The notes below the pieces were generated by a model. It made no database searches. It saw only the letters and a list, made by a program, of their open reading frames with translations, and had not been told where the DNA came from. From assembly GCF_016623465.1 (NCBI RefSeq), contig NZ_JAEDAJ010000001.1, forward strand, positions 627,963 to 691,962: DNA of 64,000 nucleotides, written 5' to 3'. Positions 44,031-53,462 of the stretch are shown piece by piece. Within the stretch, counting starts at the first letter, position 1. The number at the start of each line of letters is the position of its first letter. Both the position numbers and the translations under genes were made by a program. Source of the DNA: Brachybacterium halotolerans (GTDB lineage Bacteria > Actinomycetota > Actinomycetes > Actinomycetales > Dermabacteraceae).

Positions 44031-46292
44031 GTGGCATCGCAAGAACTGCACGATCTGGTGGTCGTCGCCAACCGTCTCCCGGTCGACGCGAAGACCCTTC
44101 CCGACGGCGCCACGGAGTGGGTGACGAGCCCCGGCGGTCTGGTGACCGCGATGGAGAGCGTGATGCGGAACGTCGACTCGGCGGCCTGGGTGGGCTGGGC
44201 CGGCTCCCCGGGCGAGGCGCCCGAGCCGTTCCGGGCCGACGGCATGGACCTGTACCCGGTGAGCCTGGATGCGACGGACATCGAGAAGTACTACGAGGGC
44301 TTCTCCAACGGGACGCTCTGGCCGCTCTACCACGACGTGATCGTCGACCCCGCCTACCACCGCACCTGGTGGGACACCTATGTGAGCGCGAACCGCCGCT
44401 TCGCGAAGGCCGCGGCCGCCGTCACCGCGCCCGGCGGCACGATCTGGGTGCACGACTACCAGCTCCAGCTCGTGCCCGAGATGATCCGCTCCGAGCGGCC
44501 CGACGTCCGCATCGGCTTCTTCAACCACATCCCCTTCCCGCCCGTCGAGCTCTTCAGCCAGCTGCCCAAGCGCAACCAGGTGCTGCGCGGACTGCTGGGC
44601 GCGGACCTCGTGGGCTTCCAGCGCGAGAGCGACACCCTGAACTTCCTCGCCTCGGTGCGCCACCTGCTGGGGTACCAGGTCGACCAGCGCACCGTCACCG
44701 TGCCCGGGATCGGCGCGGTCGAGCCGCGCGACGTGATCGCCGGGACCTTCCCGATCTCTCTCGACACCCAGGCCGTCACCGCGCTGACCGACGACCCCGA
44801 GATCCAGGAGCGCGCCCGCCAGCTGCGCCACGACCTCGGGGACCCCGAGAAGGTCGTGCTGGGCGTGGACCGTCTCGACTACACCAAGGGCATCCGCCAT
44901 CGCCTCAAGGCCTGGGGAGAGCTGCTGAACGACGGCTCGATCGACCCGCGCGAGACCGTCCTCGTGCAGGTCGCGACGCCCTCGCGCGAGAGGGTCGACG
45001 CCTACCGTCAGCTGCGCGACGAGGTCGAGCTGACCGTCGGCCGCATCAACGGCGACCACGCCCCCATTGGCCGCCCGGCCATCTCCTACCTGCACCGCTC
45101 CTTCAACCGCCGGGACATGACGGCGCTGTACATGGCGGCCGACGTGGTGCTGGTGACCGCCCTGCGCGACGGCATGAACCTCGTCGCCAAGGAGTACGTG
45201 GCCTCGCGCCCGGACCTGCGCGGCGTGCTGGTGCTCTCCGAGTTCGCCGGCGCGGCCGACGAGCTGCGCGCCGCCCTGCTGGTGAACCCGCACGACATCG
45301 ACGAGCTGAAGTCCGCGGCGCTGCGTGCGCTCAGCATGCCGGAGGAGGAGCAGGAGGAGATGATGACCTCGCTGCGCCGGCAGGTGCTCGACCACGACGT
45401 GCAGTCCTGGGCGAAGCACTTCCTCGACGAGCTCGAGGCCGTCGGCGAGCCCGCTCCCCCGTCGGCCCCGATCATCCGGCTGTCCGGGACCGAGTCCCCG
45501 GATGCCGCGCAGCTCGACGCGGCGCTCGAGGCCTTCGCCGACACCCCGCGCATCCTCGTCGCCTCGGACTTCGACGGCGTGCTCGCACCGATCGTCACCG
45601 ACCGCGACGCGGTGCAGGCGAACCCGCGCTCGATCGGCGCGCTTCGCGGGCTCACCGAGCTGTCCGGGGTGAACGTCGCGCTCGTCTCCGGGCGGGCGCT
45701 CGAGGACCTCCAGCACCACGCGGGCATGCCCAGCTCCGTCGCGCTCGTCGGCTCGCACGGCGCCGAGGTCGGGGCCCTGCCCTCGGACCTCCACGCTGAC
45801 GTCATGGACGCGGGAACGATGACCATGGACGAGACCCGGCAGAACCTGCGCGACTCCATCGCGCGCCGCCTCCAACACATCGCCGACCAGCATCCGGGGG
45901 CGGAGGTCGAGGTCAAGCCCGCCTCCGCTGTGCTGCACACGCGCAATGCGAAGGGCCGCGGCGCGGGCAACGCCACCGAGGCCGCGCTCGAGTTCGCACG
46001 CGGCCTCCCCGACGTCACCGTCACGCCGGGCAAGGAGGTCGTCGAGTTCTCCGTGGTCGACTCCCACAAGGGCACCGCGGTGCGCGCGCTCGGCCGGGCC
46101 GCCGCGGCCGACGCGATCCTCTACCTCGGAGACGACGTGACCGACGAGAACGTCTTCGCGATCCTCGAGGACGGCGATCTGGGCGTGAAGGTGGGCGACG
46201 GCGACACGGCCGCCGCCTTCCGGATCGAGGGCACCGACGCGGTCGCCGAGCTCCTCGAACGCCTGCTGGAGCTGCGCGCCGGCGAGGCGTGA
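44031..46292 (+). CDS. Bifunctional trehalose-6-phosphate synthase/phosphatase (OtsA-OtsB fusion)
   Basis: 753 aa from GTG 44031 with AGGAGG upstream. Residues about 1-470 form the GT20 synthase (VVVANRLPV, WVHDYQLQLVP, RIGFFNHIPFPP, VDRLDYTKGI, LVTALRDGMNLVAKEYVA). Residues about 505-753 form the HAD phosphatase (ILVASDFDGVLAPI with the nucleophile Asp, ALVSGR, KGTAVRAL, YLGDDVTDENVF). One polypeptide could thus make trehalose from UDP-Glc and Glc-6-P. Trehalose may feed the GlgE pathway encoded at 6-8 kb. It is the last core gene before the low-GC island. Confidence 0.95.
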   Translation: MASQELHDLVVVANRLPVDAKTLPDGATEWVTSPGGLVTAMESVMRNVDSAAWVGWAGSPGEAPEPFRADGMDLYPVSLDATDIEKYYEGFSNGTLWPLYHDVIVDPAYHRTWWDTYVSANRRFAKAAAAVTAPGGTIWVHDYQLQLVPEMIRSERPDVRIGFFNHIPFPPVELFSQLPKRNQVLRGLLGADLVGFQRESDTLNFLASVRHLLGYQVDQRTVTVPGIGAVEPRDVIAGTFPISLDTQAVTALTDDPEIQERARQLRHDLGDPEKVVLGVDRLDYTKGIRHRLKAWGELLNDGSIDPRETVLVQVATPSRERVDAYRQLRDEVELTVGRINGDHAPIGRPAISYLHRSFNRRDMTALYMAADVVLVTALRDGMNLVAKEYVASRPDLRGVLVLSEFAGAADELRAALLVNPHDIDELKSAALRALSMPEEEQEEMMTSLRRQVLDHDVQSWAKHFLDELEAVGEPAPPSAPIIRLSGTESPDAAQLDAALEAFADTPRILVASDFDGVLAPIVTDRDAVQANPRSIGALRGLTELSGVNVALVSGRALEDLQHHAGMPSSVALVGSHGAEVGALPSDLHADVMDAGTMTMDETRQNLRDSIARRLQHIADQHPGAEVEVKPASAVLHTRNAKGRGAGNATEAALEFARGLPDVTVTPGKEVVEFSVVDSHKGTAVRALGRAAAADAILYLGDDVTDENVFAILEDGDLGVKVGDGDTAAAFRIEGTDAVAELLERLLELRAGEA

Positions 46293-46320
46293 GCCCGGGG
46301 CCGCGACGCCCCGCATGCAG

Positions 46321-46364
46321 GAATCCCCGGCCGGTGACTTCGAGAGGTCTCCGTCCGGGGATTC
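46321..46364 (+). terminator. Terminator hairpin after the otsA-otsB fusion
   Basis: GAATCCCCGG (46321-46330) pairs exactly with CCGGGGATTC (46355-46364). It begins 29 nt past the stop. The T-run is short, but the stem is strong and the position apt. Confidence 0.65.
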
Positions 46365-46444
46365 CGTCGGTGCTCCCCGCTGGACTCAAACCGAACGTGC
46401 AGCAGCGGTTTGAACGGCTAGAAACGGTGTGGAACCAGGCGAGG

Positions 46445-46654
46445 ATGGGCATCCGCGATAGCGGAGCGTCCCAGCGGGAGGATGACTTTGCGGTCGTCAC
46501 AGAGCCAAGCAGACCGACTAGAACGCCTCCCACGCCAGAGGAAGTGGACGCTATTAGAACGGCGAAGGCCAGCGGCGAGAGCGTCCGCTCCATCGCCGAG
46601 CGCTTCAACAAGCATCGGAGCACGGTTTGGCGGCACACGAAGGACATCCGGTGA
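46445..46654 (+). CDS. Small helix-turn-helix protein
   Basis: 69 aa if it starts at ATG 46445; an open frame exists upstream but overlaps the otsA-otsB terminator. The C-terminal half, PTPEEVDAIRTAKASGESVR followed by SIAERFNKHRSTVWRHTKD, matches the HTH of resolvase/invertase-type DNA-binding domains. It lacks a catalytic domain, so it is either a stand-alone small regulator or the DNA-binding remnant of a recombinase. It is convergent with the helicase gene. Confidence 0.5.
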   Translation: MGIRDSGASQREDDFAVVTEPSRPTRTPPTPEEVDAIRTAKASGESVRSIAERFNKHRSTVWRHTKDIR

Positions 46655-46765
46655 CTCTCGGGCTCCGACGCTGGCAGCTCGAAGTCGCGTACCCATAAGG
46701 CACGGAGCGCTAGCAAGTTGTGCGTTCGCGTTGCTCTTGTTCAGGAACTGTGCGGCGCCTATCAG

Positions 46766-48679
46766 TTAGAAGGTTCCAACCACTTCGAACCCGAGTTGCC
46801 TGAGTTTTTCGGACGTGGCGTGCACGTCAGCCACTTCCTTCTGGGGGATCACGATGTCGAGTTCTGACCTTGCCCGAGAACACCCGACATAGAAGAGCCG
46901 GTAGGCAGCTAGCAAACCCTCGATCGCCGACAGTTTGAAGAGCTTTTTTGCGTGCGTCACCCCAGGCCTCTCGAGATACGCGCCATATGACTCCCCGTAG
47001 AGTTCGACAATTAAATCAGAATCGTTCAACTCATCCGCGACAATCCGAGCCTGCGCGGTGATCACTTCTGCGAACGCCGGAAAAGTCTCCTTATTCAGCT
47101 TTGAGATGTCCACGCCGATCACGTCTTTTGCTGAACGGAACAACTCGGACAGCTTTCCGTAAAGCCCTTCCAGGGAGTCGAGGTTCAGGTCGTATCTTGG
47201 CCAGAGGTCGAATAGGGACCTCATGCGCACCACCGGTGACGTACTCGTCTCCGCAATGAACACCACTTTCTCGTGGCTCTCGCCCTTGACTCCGTGCTGA
47301 GTCGAGCGAGTAGGTGATGAGCGAAAGTCGAAAACGTTGCGCACCTGCTGGAACGGGACCAGCATGATCGCGTCGTAGTCTGCATTGCCCAAGTAGTCGC
47401 TGACATCCGCAGCCCGGGTGACCGAAAGATTTGAGAGCGTTTCGAGCACATCTTTGATACTCGAAGTGCCGTTACGCATCACTTCAAAAAGCACGCCAAG
47501 TTGATTCGCAAGTCGTTCCTTGTCCTCATGAACACGGAGTGTGAAATCACCGAAATCTTTTGAATGTGCACGCAGCGTGGTGATCACAGTTCCGACGTGA
47601 CCACGTGTATGTTCAGATTCGAGATCAAGCAGGCCATATAGGAGCCGAATTAGAGGGTTGGGAACCTTCTCCCAATCTGACTCAGTCAGCGCGGACGCTG
47701 CCGGGTATCGGGAGTTGTAGCCGTGATCAGGCATATCTTTTAGAGCGTTAAAGAGTTCGAGGCTGCCGATAGCTCCAAAGATCGACGAATTGTGAACGCT
47801 CAAAATCAAAGTATCTGGATCTGCAATCCGAGCTACGGTGTCGTCGGGCGTTGCGCAAAAGTGCACCCTTGGAACGCTGCCGCCAGCCTTGGAATCGGCA
47901 ACCTGCCGCAGGGTCTCATCGTTGTAGATGTTGTTGAGCACTGAGACGATGGCCTCAGTTGAGCGGTAGTTGACAACCTCGCGGCGTGGTACATCGAAGG
48001 CACAGATCAGAGCCTGAAAGCGTTCTGGGTCTGATTTGTAGATCTGCTGCATGCGATCCCCGTACAGATGAAGACCGGTGTCTGAACCGCGCAGGGCCTC
48101 GAAAAAGAACTCGAGTACATTAACGTCTGTGTCTTGATACTCGTCGATGATCACCCGGCGATACTTTGCACTCACTCGCCGGTAAATATTCGGATATCGC
48201 TTTGCGCAGGATGCGACGAAGGACAGCAGGTCGTCGTGCGACAGCCCCCCGCGATAGAGGGTGTTAAACGGTCGTTCGTTGTAGTAGAGCGATTCAACTG
48301 ACTCTCTAACGAGTTCGAAGGTCAGAGGATCACCCAACTCCTCGCGGTATCTCGCATTGCTTTCCTCTGTTGTGACGCTTTCCTCGGCATTTTCAATCCG
48401 AGCCTTGATCGCGTCGCCATAGATCTCAAAATAGTAAGCAACGATCTCGCGCGCTGAGAACAAGGATTGGCTGAACCTGCTCAAGAACGAGTGGATCGTG
48501 GAAACCTCGATATACGGAGAAGAGATGTCTGCCTTGAGTTCATCGGCAGCTCGATTCGTGTAGGTTACGCACAGCAACCGGTCGAGAGGACGTTCTGCCG
48601 ACCACTCGCGAACGAGGCGCTTAATCTCCGTGCTCTTACCGCTACCTGCGGGCGCGTTGACAAGCTGCAACTGGCTCAT
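46766..48679 (-). CDS. UvrD/PcrA-like superfamily-1 helicase, GajB-like
   Basis: 637 aa from ATG 48679, overlapping the stop of the nuclease gene (ATGA). All SF1A motifs are visible: I APAGSGKST (residues 9-17), Ia TYTNRAADEL (39-48), II IIDEYQDTD (177-185), III GDRMQQIY (207-214), IV NYRS (237-240), V TQHGVKGESHEKVVFI, and VI FYVGCSRAR (about 596-604). The Gabija helicase GajB is the same type but about 490 aa, so this one is longer. The pairing and gene order (nuclease first, helicase second) fit Gabija, and class 2 OLD nucleases are in general found beside such helicases. Low GC relative to the flanks. Predicted role: antiphage defence as a complex with the nuclease. Confidence 0.85.
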   Translation of the reverse strand: MSQLQLVNAPAGSGKSTEIKRLVREWSAERPLDRLLCVTYTNRAADELKADISSPYIEVSTIHSFLSRFSQSLFSAREIVAYYFEIYGDAIKARIENAEESVTTEESNARYREELGDPLTFELVRESVESLYYNERPFNTLYRGGLSHDDLLSFVASCAKRYPNIYRRVSAKYRRVIIDEYQDTDVNVLEFFFEALRGSDTGLHLYGDRMQQIYKSDPERFQALICAFDVPRREVVNYRSTEAIVSVLNNIYNDETLRQVADSKAGGSVPRVHFCATPDDTVARIADPDTLILSVHNSSIFGAIGSLELFNALKDMPDHGYNSRYPAASALTESDWEKVPNPLIRLLYGLLDLESEHTRGHVGTVITTLRAHSKDFGDFTLRVHEDKERLANQLGVLFEVMRNGTSSIKDVLETLSNLSVTRAADVSDYLGNADYDAIMLVPFQQVRNVFDFRSSPTRSTQHGVKGESHEKVVFIAETSTSPVVRMRSLFDLWPRYDLNLDSLEGLYGKLSELFRSAKDVIGVDISKLNKETFPAFAEVITAQARIVADELNDSDLIVELYGESYGAYLERPGVTHAKKLFKLSAIEGLLAAYRLFYVGCSRARSELDIVIPQKEVADVHATSEKLRQLGFEVVGTF

Positions 48680-50781
48680 GATTCTAGCCACTGGAGTGCA
48701 GAGGAGATATACGGTGGAACTGTCTTCATCAGTTCCGGTTTGAGGAGCAGAGAATACATGAAGTCGGTCTTCTGGTTCGATGTTGACAAGACGATCTCTC
48801 GGATTGTCGGAGACTCCGGTTCTCGGGGTATCGAGAATTTCAACCCAGAATCCTCGCGGTACTGTTTCCAATCTTCTTGGGTCCGAGGCGACCAGACATC
48901 CGCATTCAGCAAGACAGCAAGGATCGCCTCTTCGAAAGTGCGTGCGTAGCCTTCACGTCCTGACTGGAAAGCGACGGCTGCTGACTGCGCGTCAGGCATC
49001 GGTGCTACTCCTGTGTCTGGTGAAACTTTCCCAAGCAGGTTTTCGATCGTTAGCGTCTTCACGCCCTCGGGTTCAGTAGCCGCGCTTTCTTCGCCGAAAA
49101 GGGCGTTCAATGTTGCATTGGTCGAGCGGAGCGGTTTTAGTTCATCGAAGCTTGAAGTCACGCTCGACTTATCGTAATCAGTATCGGTAATTACCACTGT
49201 TTTTAGGCGAAGCGCGTCGACAACGAGCGGTTTGTACACATGAGCGTAAGCGCCGCCAACCTGAACATATGAGATGTACTGGGCTCGGAGGCTCGAGAGT
49301 TCTGGAAGTTCTCGGATTAGGGCCTGAATGTACATTCGCTCAGTGTCGCCTTCATACATGATGACTTTGTCAGCGAAGAGCAGGTCGGAAAAATTGATCG
49401 CATACAGGAAGCTAAATAGTCGTTGCGTTTCTGATGACTTTCCTGCAATCTCGGCGGTGTGAAAGTCCCGCAGATCGACTATGCGGCATCCATGGTCTTC
49501 AGATTTGAGGACGCGGAGCTGCTCAATTCCGCTTGCCCTCACGATCTCGCTCGAGTGCGATGTGACGGCCGCTTGAAGTCCTCCAACCTTCTCAACCCTC
49601 GACAGAAGATGTTTGATGAAGGCGCTTTGCATCTGCGGGTGCATGTGCGACTCTGGTTCCTCAAGAACCAACAGGTTTACTAGATATCCATTCTCGTCAC
49701 TAGCGGCCGATCGAATGAATGACTCGGCTTCAAGATGCAAGTAGATGAGGTTGCTGTAGCCCAAACCTTGGGAGGCCTCGCCCAATGGAACGCCCGCCCC
49801 GAGGTAGCGAGTCTGCATTGCTCGCGCAATCATTTGGACAGCATGGTCCTCGGTCACATGGAAATCCAGGAAGAGGTCATTCTGTTTCGATCCGTTCGTG
49901 TTCGAGATTGACTCGATGACCGCGTTTAGGCTCTTAAGCGCTTCGTCGGCCATTACTTCACGAATCTTTAAGCCCTGAATCGCTGATAGCACCTGGTCGG
50001 GCAGCTTAGAGAGAATCTCTAGCCAGTTCTCATCCTCTTTCGCAACCTCGATTAGGCGCTGGTTCAGTCCGCCTGACTTATCTTCGTTGATGTCATCGAG
50101 GGCTCGCGACGCCTTTACTGCTCGGAAGTTGATCAGTCGCTTGAGATTCTTGTGCGTTCCCATGGGGAGGATGTTGGTGTAGCTCTCATCTGCGAAGAAC
50201 ACTTCCGACCTGGAGCAGTCAACGAGCGAAGCATCGACCTTTGCCTGGAGTACAAGGAACTCTGATGAGCCTGGCTTGGCGTCGTTCGCAGATGTCCAGC
50301 CGCAACTATCTATGGTCTTCTTGATGTCGGGATAGAGTTCGACGTAGGCGGCGATCAGGCCATCTCGCCTCGCGGAGAAGCGAAACTGGAAGTAAAATGA
50401 ACTCTTTGTTGATTCCAAGTCCATCAAGTAGTCTGCGAATTCGCGAATGTCGTCAGAGGCTCTGTCATACTTCACTTCGAGGCGAACATCAACCGCTGGA
50501 ACCTGTTCAAGAAGGTCTTCTTGCTCTAGGAAACCTCGATACGCATCCTCACCTTTAACCGCTGCATCGACGAGGGCTTTGAACCACTCATGACGAGCTG
50601 ATGCGCTGAGATCCTCGGCCCGGAGGCTCCCTTCCCCTCCAAGCACGACGCGCAGAAGATCGATGAGAGAGGTCTTGCCCGAGTTGTTGGCACCAGCGAG
50701 AATGGTTGTTCCATCCTCAAACTTGATGTTCTGTGCTTTGAATCGACGGTAACCATCGATGTAGATCGAGCTGACCTTCAT
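48676..50781 (-). CDS. OLD-family ATP-dependent endonuclease (ABC ATPase + TOPRIM), GajA-like
   Basis: 701 aa from ATG 50781, preceded by AGGAG. The N-terminal ABC-type ATPase has Walker A GANNSGKTS (30-38), a signature-like SQGLGYSN (337-344), Walker B with LVLEEPESHMHP (371-382) and an H-loop SHS (408-410). The C-terminal TOPRIM nuclease has the metal-binding Glu in YEGDTE (476-481) and the DTD pair (533-535). A further 160 residues follow. GajA from Bacillus is about 580 aa, so this is an extended class 2 OLD protein. The coupled helicase makes a Gabija-type system the best reading; another OLD-helicase defence family is possible. Codon use and GC differ clearly from the flanking genes. 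Confidence 0.87.
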   Translation of the reverse strand: MKVSSIYIDGYRRFKAQNIKFEDGTTILAGANNSGKTSLIDLLRVVLGGEGSLRAEDLSASARHEWFKALVDAAVKGEDAYRGFLEQEDLLEQVPAVDVRLEVKYDRASDDIREFADYLMDLESTKSSFYFQFRFSARRDGLIAAYVELYPDIKKTIDSCGWTSANDAKPGSSEFLVLQAKVDASLVDCSRSEVFFADESYTNILPMGTHKNLKRLINFRAVKASRALDDINEDKSGGLNQRLIEVAKEDENWLEILSKLPDQVLSAIQGLKIREVMADEALKSLNAVIESISNTNGSKQNDLFLDFHVTEDHAVQMIARAMQTRYLGAGVPLGEASQGLGYSNLIYLHLEAESFIRSAASDENGYLVNLLVLEEPESHMHPQMQSAFIKHLLSRVEKVGGLQAAVTSHSSEIVRASGIEQLRVLKSEDHGCRIVDLRDFHTAEIAGKSSETQRLFSFLYAINFSDLLFADKVIMYEGDTERMYIQALIRELPELSSLRAQYISYVQVGGAYAHVYKPLVVDALRLKTVVITDTDYDKSSVTSSFDELKPLRSTNATLNALFGEESAATEPEGVKTLTIENLLGKVSPDTGVAPMPDAQSAAVAFQSGREGYARTFEEAILAVLLNADVWSPRTQEDWKQYREDSGLKFSIPREPESPTIREIVLSTSNQKTDFMYSLLLKPELMKTVPPYISSALQWLES

Positions 50782-50981
50782 TGTTTGCTCCTGCCGAAGT
50801 CTCCACACTTGTCCTGAAACCGGCCAGCTCTATCATCAAGGTCCTCGGCAGAACCTTGGTCGGCCTCGACCGGGGTTAGCGCGTGGTACTTGCTCTGAAG
50901 CTCTCCATGTTCATCTCCGTCTGATTATGACAGGAACCCTGCTCTGCGGTGTAGCTTTCGGGCTTCCCCTTCGGCTCGTCG

Positions 50982-51336
50982 CTAGAGCTGCTGAGCTCTG
51001 TCGATCTTGCGCTGATGCTGCCGCTCCGGCCGTGATGCCGACTGCTGCGCGACGCGTCTGGCGCGTGCGAGCGCTGCCAGTGCTGCTCGGTGCTCGGATG
51101 CCTGGTCTGCGGTCGTGACGGCCTTGGCTTCACCCAGCGGTGCTGGGCCAGTGATCTCGTGGCGGTAGCGGTATAGCGCGACCGTGGCGGCGTGTGCCTC
51201 CCACCGCTCTCGCGCTTCGGGTCGTGTACTCGGCTGCCCGAGCCGCGTCACCCATGCGGCTCCTGCTTCCTGGGCGTCGTGCAGGAGTCCGCGCGCGGCA
51301 GTCTCGATGAGCATCTGCCGTTCGGTGAGCGCGGTC
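50982..51336 (-). pseudogene. C-terminal fragment of a conjugative relaxase (TraA/MobF type)
   Basis: About 118 codons survive, reading ALTERQMLIETAARGLLHDA, WVTRLGQP, ERWEAHAATVALYRYRHEIT and GPAPLG. This is the typical C-terminal end of long actinobacterial mobilisation relaxases. The frame continues without a stop up to the IS inverted repeat at 51337, where homology is cut. The catalytic tyrosine and helicase domains are missing. An ATG at 51314 lies within the fragment but is not the native start. The 200 bp between it and the nuclease gene (50782-50981) shows no gene. Confidence 0.65.
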
Positions 51337-51361
51337 GGGACTGATGCACGGATAGGTGTCA
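51337..51361. repeat. IS left terminal inverted repeat
   Basis: Begins GGGACTGATGCACGGATAGG and continues GTGTCA. It matches the reverse complement of 52579-52603 without mismatch. It starts 7 bp past the restored orfB stop at 51369. Confidence 0.92.
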
Positions 51362-51394
51362 GTCGGGGTTAGGCCGCCAGGCTGACGGTCTGGT

Positions 51395-52228
51395 TCATGA
51401 TGGTCTCGTACTCGATGGGGTCAACCGGCCCAGCCGGCTCTGCCTGCGACGACGGTGGTAGGTCCTTTCGATCCAGGTCACGATCGCGATCCTCAGCTCG
51501 TCTCGTGTCCGCCACCGCCGACGGTTCAGGACGTTCTTCTGCAGCAACGCGAAGAACGACTCCATCGCGGCGTTGTCGCCGGCAGCACCGACCTTGCCCA
51601 TCGAGCCCACGAGTCGATGATGGTTCAGGGCATGCACGAAACTCTGGGCCCGAAACTGGGATCCTCGGTCCGAGTGCACGACGCAACCGGCGACGTCACC
51701 ACGCTTGGCCACGGCGCTGACCAGGGCGTTCACCGCGAGGCGGGCTTTCATCCGGTCGCTGATGGAGTAGCCCACGATCCGACCAGAGAACACGTCCTTG
51801 ATCGCGCAGAGGTAGAGCTTGCCCTGGTCGGTCCAGTGCTCAGTGATGTCGGTCAGCCAGCGCTCGTCGACGTGATCGGCGGTGAAGTTCCGCTTGACCA
51901 GGTCGTCGTGCACGGGCGGGCCGGGGCGTTTCCCGTTCTTGCCCCGCTTCTTCCCGAACACCGACCACCAGTGATTGTCCCGGCAGATCCGCCAGGCGGT
52001 CCGCTCACACATGCGTTGACCAGCGGTCTCCGTTTCGCCGGCGAGGAATCGGTAGCCGAACTCGGGATCGTCCCGGTGGGCGTCGAACAAAGCGTTGGCC
52101 CGGTGGGCTTCGATCAGCTCAGACGGGGTGACGTGCTGTTGCCGCCAGCGGTAGTAGGGCTGGCGGGAGAGCTTCAGGACCCGCAGGGACACCGCGACGC
52201 GGATCCCGTCGGCGGCGAGCTCGCTCAC
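51395..52228 (-). CDS. IS3-family transposase orfB (DDE), C-terminal frameshift
   Basis: 277 aa. An rve/DDE integrase core with HTH_21 N-terminus: Asp in WLTDITEHWT, Asp in VVHSDRGSQF, Glu in DNAAMESFFALLQ, and the trailing NRRRW. At the extreme end RLGRLTP is followed by SSTRPS and a stop. One added base in the G run at 51417-51420 would instead give LTPIEYETIMNQTVSLAA and a stop at 51369, which is the expected family ending. So orfB carries a -1 frameshift (real or sequencing), costing about the last 15 residues. Confidence 0.9.
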   Translation of the reverse strand: MSELAADGIRVAVSLRVLKLSRQPYYRWRQQHVTPSELIEAHRANALFDAHRDDPEFGYRFLAGETETAGQRMCERTAWRICRDNHWWSVFGKKRGKNGKRPGPPVHDDLVKRNFTADHVDERWLTDITEHWTDQGKLYLCAIKDVFSGRIVGYSISDRMKARLAVNALVSAVAKRGDVAGCVVHSDRGSQFRAQSFVHALNHHRLVGSMGKVGAAGDNAAMESFFALLQKNVLNRRRWRTRDELRIAIVTWIERTYHRRRRQSRLGRLTPSSTRPS

Positions 52229-52533
52229 GAGCGGGTAGAACCTTTTCCCGGCAGGTTCGCCTGGGAAAGGTATGCCGCTGCGCGGCGCAGGACCTCGTTC
52301 TCCTGCTCGAGGAGGCGGTTTCGTCGCCGAAGGTCGCGGAGCTCGGTCGAGTCTTCACGGGTCTTCCCGGGCCGGTTGCCGTCCTCGACGTCGGCCTGGC
52401 GCATCCAGTTCGTCAGGCAGGATTCCGAGATCCCGAAGTCCTTCGCGATCGTCGAGAGCTTCTGGCCAGGTTCACGGTTCCTCGCGACGCGGACCACGTC
52501 ATCACGGAACTCCTGGGGATAGGGAGCGGGCAT
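52225..52533 (-). CDS. IS3-family transposase orfA (HTH)
   Basis: 102 aa from ATG 52533 (ATG 52542 also possible), with a GGAAGG site. A helix-turn-helix (YPQEFRDDVVRVARNREPGQ, IAKDFGISESCLTNWMRQAD) is followed by a leucine-zipper-like LRDLRRRNRLLEQENEVLRR. It overlaps orfB by 4 nt. Typical IS3 OrfA; the fused transposase would arise by frameshifting or coupling. Confidence 0.93.
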   Translation of the reverse strand: MPAPYPQEFRDDVVRVARNREPGQKLSTIAKDFGISESCLTNWMRQADVEDGNRPGKTREDSTELRDLRRRNRLLEQENEVLRRAAAYLSQANLPGKGSTRS

Positions 52534-52578
52534 GGTGCACATCCTTCCCTGCGGCGCTCCACAACGCCACAGATCATG

Positions 52579-52603
52579 TGACACCTATCCGTGCATCAGT
52601 CCC
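52579..52603. repeat. IS right terminal inverted repeat, followed by a run of C
   Basis: Exact inverted copy of the left repeat. The last bases merge into a run of 11 C (52601-52611), so the outermost repeat base and any target duplication are hard to place. Confidence 0.9.
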
Positions 52604-53451
52604 CCCCCCCCGGCGCACATGAACCGTTGCTCGATGTCGACGTATGGGAACGAGTGCAACGCATTCTGGACGCTCGGGGGCTTGCCTCCGAACGACGCCG
52701 CACCCATGACCACTACCTCAAGGGGTCACTGTTCTGCGGTTCGTTCGGGTCACGGATGCAGCTCGACTTCCCGACCAACAGTCAGGGCATCCGATATGCA
52801 TACTTCGTCTGCTCTGGGCGAGCGTCAAAACGGAAGCGCTGCACCCGGCGGGCGGTGCCCGTGGGGACCGTGGAGAAGCTGGTCGCCGACTGCTACCGGG
52901 ACATCTCCATCACCGAGGCGCAGTACACCGCGCTGGCTGCGCAAGTCGAGGCGGCGTTCGATGAGCGGCTGGCCTCGAAGTCCTCCGAGATCGCGGAACT
53001 CATGTCTACCCGTAAGCGCCTCCAAGACGAGAGCGAGAAGCTGCTCGCCGCGCACTTCGCCGACGCCATCGACCTGGACACCCTCAAACGACACCAAGAC
53101 CGCATCCGCACGGGGCTGGCCGACATCGACCGACGTCTCACCCAGGAGCACGAGGGCAGCGAAGGAACACGGCAGCATCTCACCGCTGCGCTGCGCCTGC
53201 TGATCGACTGCGCCACTATGTACGCGCGCACCGATGACCACGGCAGGCGTCTCGCGAACCAAGCACTGACCAGCGGCATCGACATCGGGGAGGACGGCGA
53301 GGCCACGATCCGCCTCGCCGAACCCCTCGCGTCGATCACCGAACCTGAGACATCTTCCGATGTCTCAGGTTCTAGTACGTCGCACAGAGTGCCCGCGACA
53401 GGATTCGAACCTACGACCTTCTGCTCCGGAGGCAGACGCTCTATCCACTGA
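52604..53451 (+). pseudogene. Large serine recombinase, C-terminal fragment
   Basis: Starting with GAHEPLLDVDVWERVQRILD and RRTHDHYLKGSLFCGSFGS, this is the end of the recombinase domain plus the zinc-ribbon region, although the usual second Cys of CGxC is Ser. A coiled-coil stretch (LMSTRKRLQDESEKLLAAHF and onward) follows. The catalytic resolvase domain is absent, cut by the IS right end. At the 3' end the frame runs through a hairpin and antisense through tRNA-Arg, so the last 30 or so codons are not native protein. Its place next to a tRNA suits the integrase of the island. Confidence 0.8.
53341..53372. terminator. Perfect 14-bp hairpin between recombinase fragment and tRNA-Arg
   Basis: GAACCTGAGACATC, a 4-nt loop TTCC, then GATGTCTCAGGTTC. 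It ends 18 bp from the tRNA 3' end. It could terminate tRNA transcription (minus strand) or recombinase transcription (plus strand), or be part of an attachment site. No T-run on either side. Confidence 0.55.
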
Positions 53452-53462
53452 GCTACGCGGGC
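53390..53462 (-). tRNA. tRNA-Arg (anticodon CCG)
   Basis: 73 nt with acceptor stem GCCCGCG/CGCGGGC, D arm TAGCTCAGTGGATAGAGC, anticodon stem TCTGC/GCAGA with loop CTCCGGA (anticodon CCG, reading CGG), and T arm GGTTCGAATCC. The 3' CCA is not encoded (the discriminator A is followed by CTC). The gene is intact and marks the right edge of the accessory island, whose sequence lies on its 3' side. Confidence 0.95.

Follow-up and report, generated by a model that had tools for sequence, protein, structure and literature searches.

A coupled pair of genes in Brachybacterium halotolerans raises the question of whether it encodes a complete antiphage system and, if so, whether its size and its host mark it as a new form of a known one. 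The pair, gajA and gajB, lies within the stretch of DNA analyzed here, referred to as the window, which comprises 64,000 nucleotides (nt) of assembly GCF_016623465.1 (NZ_JAEDAJ010000001.1, positions 627,963 to 691,962, forward strand). An earlier note, made from the sequence, had read the pair as a Gabija-type (class 2 OLD) nuclease and UvrD-like helicase operon and had suggested that it may represent a divergent actinobacterial subtype. With a probability of roughly 0.86, the pair constitutes a complete and apparently recently acquired Gabija antiphage system that belongs to an enlarged, mainly Bacillota clade.

The gajA and gajB gene pair

Direct reading of the sequence bore out the two coupled genes and their boundaries. 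The gajA gene lies on the minus strand at 48676 to 50781 (ATG at 50781, stop codon ending at 48676) and encodes an OLD-family ABC-ATPase/TOPRIM nuclease of 701 amino acids, and gajB, on the same strand at 46766 to 48679 (ATG at 48679, stop codon ending at 46766), encodes an SF1A UvrD-like helicase of 637 amino acids. The stop codon of gajA and the start codon of gajB form an ATGA overlap at 48676 to 48679 (minus strand), and both reading frames are intact. A sequence resembling a ribosome-binding site, AGGAG, can be read at 50788 to 50792, 7 to 11 nt 5′ of the gajA ATG, and the GajA proteins of relatives can be aligned from the same Met1.

The earlier note had proposed a search with hidden Markov models as a check for a better match to another OLD/helicase system; in this search, the best hits were GajA and GajB. 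The curated Gabija profiles of PADLOC recognized both proteins: model PDLC00082 matched GajA with 834 bits (E value of 1.8e-251; residues 1 to 700 on model positions 1 to 693 of 694), and model PDLC00109 matched GajB with 760 bits (E value of 5.7e-229; residues 2 to 634 on positions 6 to 645 of 647). These scores exceed those of every other family by a wide margin, which upholds the Gabija-type assignment, and the window pair, which matches end to end but scores below the Enterococcus plasmid copy described later, lies farther from the core of these models. An NCBIfam scan of the pair gave no match at its cut-off. In Pfam, GajA matched AAA_15 (residues 1 to 414) and OLD-like_TOPRIM (residues 468 to 535), the N-terminal ABC ATPase and C-terminal TOPRIM arrangement of class 2 OLD proteins, and GajB matched UvrD-helicase, as expected of the adjacent SF1A helicase gene of Gabija and class 2 OLD systems. 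As judged from sequence, the pair thus has the tested features of Gabija and is covered by existing models. GajB also matched the PADLOC profile RTasHel of reverse-transcriptase systems (173.5 bits); since this profile likewise matches 376 of 396 phylum genomes and 11 of 14 control genomes, it behaves as a general UvrD-type profile and the match was dropped.

The key residues of GajA and the intact helicase motifs of GajB that the note had described were confirmed in the sequence and in alignments. GajB carries motifs I, Ia, II (DEYQD, residues 179 to 183), III, IV (NYRS, 237 to 240), V (STQHGVKGES, 459 to 468) and VI (YVGCSRA, 597 to 603). In GajA, we located Walker A (G30 to T37; 50671 to 50694, minus strand), EEPE (E374 to E377), the TOPRIM residues E477 (49351 to 49353, minus strand), G509/G510 and D533/D535 of the DxD motif (49177 to 49185, minus strand), and K671, all of them invariant or nearly so in a 42-row alignment of relatives, except position 31. 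Residues E477, G509, D533 and D535 align with the TOPRIM active-site residues E379, G409, D432 and D434 of Bacillus cereus GajA (PMC10781630).

The Gabija system of B. cereus VD045 (GajA of 578 and GajB chain of 494 residues; PDB 8SM3, 8J4T and others) shares with the window operon the gene pair, the ABC ATPase with the TOPRIM E/G/DxD residues and the SF1A motifs I to VI, but the window proteins are longer by 123 (GajA) and 143 (GajB) residues, as the note had recognized, and the sequence similarity is only local. Relative to the Arthrobacter pair described below, the ratio of nonsynonymous to synonymous substitution rates (dN/dS) was 0.09 to 0.13 for gajA and 0.07 to 0.11 for gajB, which shows purifying selection on both genes. 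Because the PADLOC E values are 1.8e-251 and 5.7e-229 and dN/dS lies between 0.07 and 0.13, the identification of gajAB is not a matter of chance.

Relatives and the enlarged segments

When genome contigs were searched with an alignment of 3 rows, 100 relatives were obtained, of which 80 were kept; 46 loci and the window were labeled enlarged according to the similarity rank and length of GajA. The nearest GajA relatives were those of Arthrobacter psychrochitiniphilus GP3 (L011, 78% identity) and Corynebacterium sp. J010B-136 (L012, 57 to 58%), followed by proteins of at most 38% identity, mostly from Bacillota by title. The Arthrobacter and Corynebacterium pairs have the same architecture and coupling as the window pair but different genomic surroundings. 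A full-length pair, 36 and 37% identical, was found on a mobilizable Enterococcus faecalis plasmid and scored 1120 bits with the GajA model. In a GajA tree of 43 rows (33 of the 47 enlarged ones used; quick method; long-branch warnings; support from the Shimodaira-Hasegawa-like approximate likelihood ratio test, SH-aLRT, only), the window and Arthrobacter grouped with a support of 99 and were joined by Corynebacterium with 100, and this actinobacterial twig was placed in a 10-row group (94) within a 23-row group (96), inside a 33-row enlarged clade (99). The clade comprises 26 Bacillota, 2 Actinomycetota and the window, 1 Heimdallarchaeota and 3 rows without a label; by this tree, it appears to be mainly a Bacillota clade, in which the actinobacterial members form one small twig. 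Window-type GajA was found in 1 of 38 genus genomes (E value of 1e-20) and 1 of 396 sampled order genomes (1e-40), each time the window's own, and the PADLOC GajA profile at 1e-80 found 1 of 396 sampled phylum genomes, also the window's own. The Bacillota majority and the single order genome speak against the actinobacterial subtype suggested earlier.

The gajB gene accompanies gajA in 45 of the 46 enlarged loci (two of these loci show no more than its start, at the contig end, and one shows it within a single frame); in the 46th, the contig ends inside gajA. The distances of GajA and GajB correlated with r = 0.95 over 37 pairs, a value that none of 2000 permutations reached, and the pair is inherited as a unit. 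The single frame, a possible natural GajA-GajB fusion of 1366 amino acids in Lachnospiraceae MD329 (L039:6001-10101), was set aside: its junction coincides with seven consecutive G, and the protein read through it lacks the conserved C-terminal GajA motif that its sister L085 retains, which makes an indel or assembly error the likelier cause; the frame was not used as evidence. A phrase search of the literature for fused or enlarged GajA found nothing. No conserved third gene emerged, as no neighbor family occurred in more than 5 of the 46 loci within flanks of up to 6 kb, although many contigs end early and rarer partners may be missed. The neighbor families found in at least 3 loci, named from their sequences, were serine recombinases (5), cytosine methyltransferases (4), IS3-type transposases (4), MT-A70 methyltransferases (3) and Vsr-like proteins (3).

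Three further copies were also noted. On a viral contig (L003:10101-13970), enlarged gajAB is followed by an open reading frame (ORF) of 323 amino acids with cysteine pairs and by a P-loop ORF of 907 amino acids that looks helicase-like by eye. An annotated gajAB pair is present in the record of the filamentous Pseudomonas phage PfAC02b (L010:6001-9923), and a full enlarged gajAB lies on a 4.4-kb contig (L025:197-4203) whose binning as Heimdallarchaeota is putative.

The earlier note had placed the emphasis of the enlargement on the C-terminal region of GajA, with about 160 residues after the DTD motif. The number is literally correct (166), but it hardly amounts to an extension, as 144 residues follow D434 in B. 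cereus GajA. An extra C-terminal domain was rejected by residue bookkeeping: of the 123 additional residues, 98 precede the TOPRIM Glu477, 3 lie between Glu and DxD and only 22 follow DxD. Nor does size as such point to novelty, given that the best PADLOC models already have 694 (GajA) and 647 (GajB) positions and are matched end to end. Among the best 25 of the 133 PADLOC rows for GajA, 23 were GajA models and 9 of these 23 had at least 670 positions, and large GajA proteins are therefore ordinary in the catalog.

The extra length of GajA is concentrated in residues 95 to 257 (50011 to 50499, minus strand), where a 17-row profile and the residue map give 163 amino acids compared with 88 in B. 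cereus GajA (90 to 177); the profile aligned B. cereus residues 1 to 89 and 178 to 508 with window residues 1 to 94 and from 258 onward and left the part between them unaligned. In B. cereus, residues 90 to 177 hold the contact with GajB (K94, R97) and the tetramer lock (D135, R139), and substitutions in the contacts break the complex and markedly lower defense (PMC10781630). The spacing from Walker A to Walker B was 321 to 380 residues in the enlarged loci and 292 to 328 in the others (1 row of the enlarged set and 6 of the others could not be measured, and the ranges for the C-terminal part also cover truncated frames and the read-through frame of L039). Because these ranges overlap, the enlargement of GajA appears to be a matter of degree with respect to other Gabija groups and is clear only with respect to B. 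cereus.

The corresponding segment of GajB, residues 480 to 596 (46892 to 47242, minus strand), is the stretch between motifs V and VI that contains a clade-specific insert, according to motif spacing, alignment and a structure model. The V-VI spacing was 128 to 138 amino acids in 40 of 40 measurable enlarged loci and 42 to 49 in 36 of 36 others. The 40 loci are those that remain when the truncated or frame-broken L019, L032, L033, L034 and L058 are set aside from the 45 enlarged ones having a gajB match; the 36 are all loci with a GajB match among the 41 others, and since most come from one group with a GajA of 655 to 670 amino acids, they do not represent 36 independent lineages. Of the 143 residues by which GajB exceeds the B. 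cereus chain, about 106 fall between motifs V and VI in a weak-scoring, motif-anchored alignment; the extra length of GajB, too, thus lies mostly at a site other than the one the note had stressed. The insert was predicted as confident helices in a model with a predicted local distance difference test (pLDDT) score of 90, whose nearest solved folds are UvrD, Rep and RecB. The VIA list of structure matches was filled by SF1 helicases; B. cereus GajB was not among its 50 rows, an uninformative absence because the list re-ranks Foldseek hits. A Pfam search with the two enlarged segments alone (GajA 95 to 257 and GajB 480 to 596) gave nothing significant, the only match being DUF4062 at an E value of 0.16, below the cut-off.

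No description of the V-VI insert or of the enlarged clade was found in the open-access literature as searched by titles and abstract starts, a scope outside which most subscription papers fall. B. cereus GajB reportedly lacks several UvrD elements needed for unwinding, and the term 'insertion' is absent from the available part of the same paper (PMC10681800). It is tempting, if doubtful, to regard the enlarged clade as an architecturally distinct Gabija subtype. Relative to B. cereus, its GajA has about 75 additional residues in the segment for GajB contact and tetramer lock, and its GajB has an additional helical module of about 85 to 105 residues in the second RecA domain, which is present in all 40 measurable loci and in the window protein and in none of the 36 other GajB proteins; the two additions may have arisen together as a new docking or motor-coupling interface. 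If true, complex assembly, the response to DNA or inhibition by phage proteins would differ in this clade from what is seen in B. cereus Gabija. Gabija is one of the most common antiphage systems, with a presence in more than 15% of sequenced genomes (PMC10781630), and the structures of the complex that the cited papers discuss are those of the B. cereus form; the window pair is an intact, mobile and larger form with the additions clearly located in both proteins. It therefore allows a direct test of whether a different GajA-GajB interface alters how nucleotides are sensed, how DNA ends are recognized or how strongly phage inhibitors such as Gad1 act. As a single finding, the locus is a routine horizontally acquired defense operon; what merits experiment is the V-VI insert together with the expanded assembly segment, both of which mark the clade.

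Function and competing explanations

By analogy with the Gabija systems of B. cereus and Pseudomonas aeruginosa, the window pair would form a nucleotide-controlled nuclease complex that defends its host against phages. The ABC ATPase of GajA would act as a nucleotide sensor that restrains the TOPRIM nuclease, and GajB, as an SF1A motor, would act on exposed ends or single-stranded parts of the infecting DNA and, via the GajAB complex, release cleavage by GajA. Infection that exposes DNA ends or lowers nucleotides would thus lead GajA to cut, as in tested Gabija systems, and the larger N-terminal half of GajA and the V-VI insert of GajB may, in this clade, remodel the GajA-GajB assembly or the coupling of motor and nuclease. 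P. aeruginosa Gabija has been proposed to keep phage genomes with RecBCD-shielded ends from circularizing (PMC12407980). Class 2 OLD proteins (Burkholderia pseudomallei, Xanthomonas campestris) have been equated with GajA by reviewers, who report that BpOLD cuts nonspecifically with a negligible effect of nucleotides (PMC10568477).

Several observations weigh against the Gabija reading. The similarity to B. cereus GajA is weak (phmmer E value of 7e-7) and covers residues 370 to 559 only, and a 3-sequence clade profile recovered no B. cereus GajA chain at 1e-5. Moreover, we know of no tested member of the enlarged clade, so that its function is carried over from distant relatives. Even a tested system may protect poorly, as Streptococcus thermophilus Gabija4145 gave only 0.5 to 1 log of protection against two phages (PMC11514479). 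A promoter scan found 2 sites and a terminator scan 3 sites, neither above shuffled sequences. Because the integrase of the carrying element is broken and no promoter rises above chance, expression is unproven.

The same broken integrase, the lack of a promoter above chance, a GC content far from that of the host and an insertion sequence (IS) about 550 bp upstream of gajA would also fit a decaying passenger, in which gajAB is intact in sequence but silent or nonfunctional in its host. We consider this unlikely, though it is the most serious alternative: both frames are intact, and dN/dS relative to Arthrobacter is 0.07 to 0.13, even if that selection may mostly reflect time spent in other hosts. 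A role of the enlarged pair in DNA repair or plasmid control instead of phage defense is improbable. SF1A helicases are typically repair enzymes, and some OLD-family ATPases, such as archaeal Cran1, act outside defense (PMC12796447); the patchy presence (1 of 38 genus and 1 of 396 order genomes, each the window's own) and the recombinases and methyltransferases near some of the relatives' copies fit defense better. Least probable of all is another OLD-type defense merely resembling GajA (PARIS AriA, Septu PtuA, a retron effector or a stand-alone class 1 OLD), since the PADLOC matches to AriA (127 bits) and Old (96 bits) and the NCBIfam match to retron PtuA (46 bits, cut-off 500) compare with 834 bits over the whole length for the best GajA model, the coupled partner is a UvrD-like helicase, unlike in PARIS (AriA/AriB) and at odds with a stand-alone class 1 OLD, and a Pfam scan of 10 neighboring ORFs gave no match to a reverse transcriptase, as would be needed for a retron class 3 OLD effector, or to an HNH or AriB-like protein.

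The island that carries the pair

The Gabija pair resides in a genomic island of about 7.0 kb (46393 to 53388) that is absent from the same site in relatives. In a relative with 94% identical flanks (G012), window position 46392 meets 53389 with a 23-nt overlap, and the tRNA-Arg(CCG) gene comes directly after the trehalose synthase/phosphatase gene, whose end lies at 46292 in the window. This tRNA gene (53389 to 53462, minus strand; predicted by ARAGORN), the integration site, is present in all 8 fetched relatives. In 6 of them (L103-L106, L108 and L110), less than about 450 bp separate the trehalose gene from the tRNA gene; in L107 the two are separated by other DNA of about 5.7 kb, and for L109 the 9.5 kb fetched showed no trehalose gene. 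The tRNA copy of the 23-nt overlap in the window equals that of G012, and the left end (46370 to 46392) resembles the 3′ end of a tRNA, is identical to 53389-53411 at 16 of 23 positions and may be a remnant of an attachment site.

The island is a degraded mobile-element remnant with an IS-truncated serine recombinase at the tRNA-Arg gene. From left to right, it contains a helix-turn-helix ORF remnant (46393 to 46654, plus strand; Pfam HTH_38, 31.6 bits for the ORF 46289-46654), gajAB, an ORF of 110 amino acids without a Pfam or plasmid match (50982 to 51314, minus strand), an IS of about 1.27 kb (51335 to 52603, minus strand) that is bounded by terminal inverted repeats of 25 bp and was assigned to the IS3 type on the basis of its two ORFs, and a large serine recombinase gene truncated by this IS, whose remaining 3′ portion encodes only the zinc ribbon (Pfam Zn_ribbon_recom) and the C-terminal region (52604 to 53388, plus strand). 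Relatives of the recombinase occur in 15 of 38 genus genomes (E value of 1e-10, the window's own counted), the best other being 72% identical. An origin of the island from a conjugative plasmid found no support in ORFs 50982-51311 and 46388-46651, which gave no plasmid match.

The earlier note had spoken of a low-GC island. A GC content of 0.52 to 0.54 across 47 to 51 kb, compared with mostly 0.66 to 0.77 elsewhere in the window, is indeed present, but it is a trait of the gajAB genes and not of the whole island, because the copies of two relatives have 46 to 52% GC and the island outside gajAB about 65 to 66%. DNA similarity to the Arthrobacter locus (76% over 4.0 kb) stops at the ends of gajAB, and since it covers gajAB only, the two genes appear to be mobile on their own, separately from the element that now carries them.

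The tRNA-Arg(CCG) gene at 53389-53462 looks like a reused landing site. In L109 (1126-3526), which is of the same genus, a fragment that we read as a tyrosine integrase C terminus lies beside tRNA-Arg(CCG), together with another copy of the island's IS at 82% identity. The left end at 46370-46392 is similar to the 3′ terminus of another tRNA, as if the element had brought its attachment sequence from another host.

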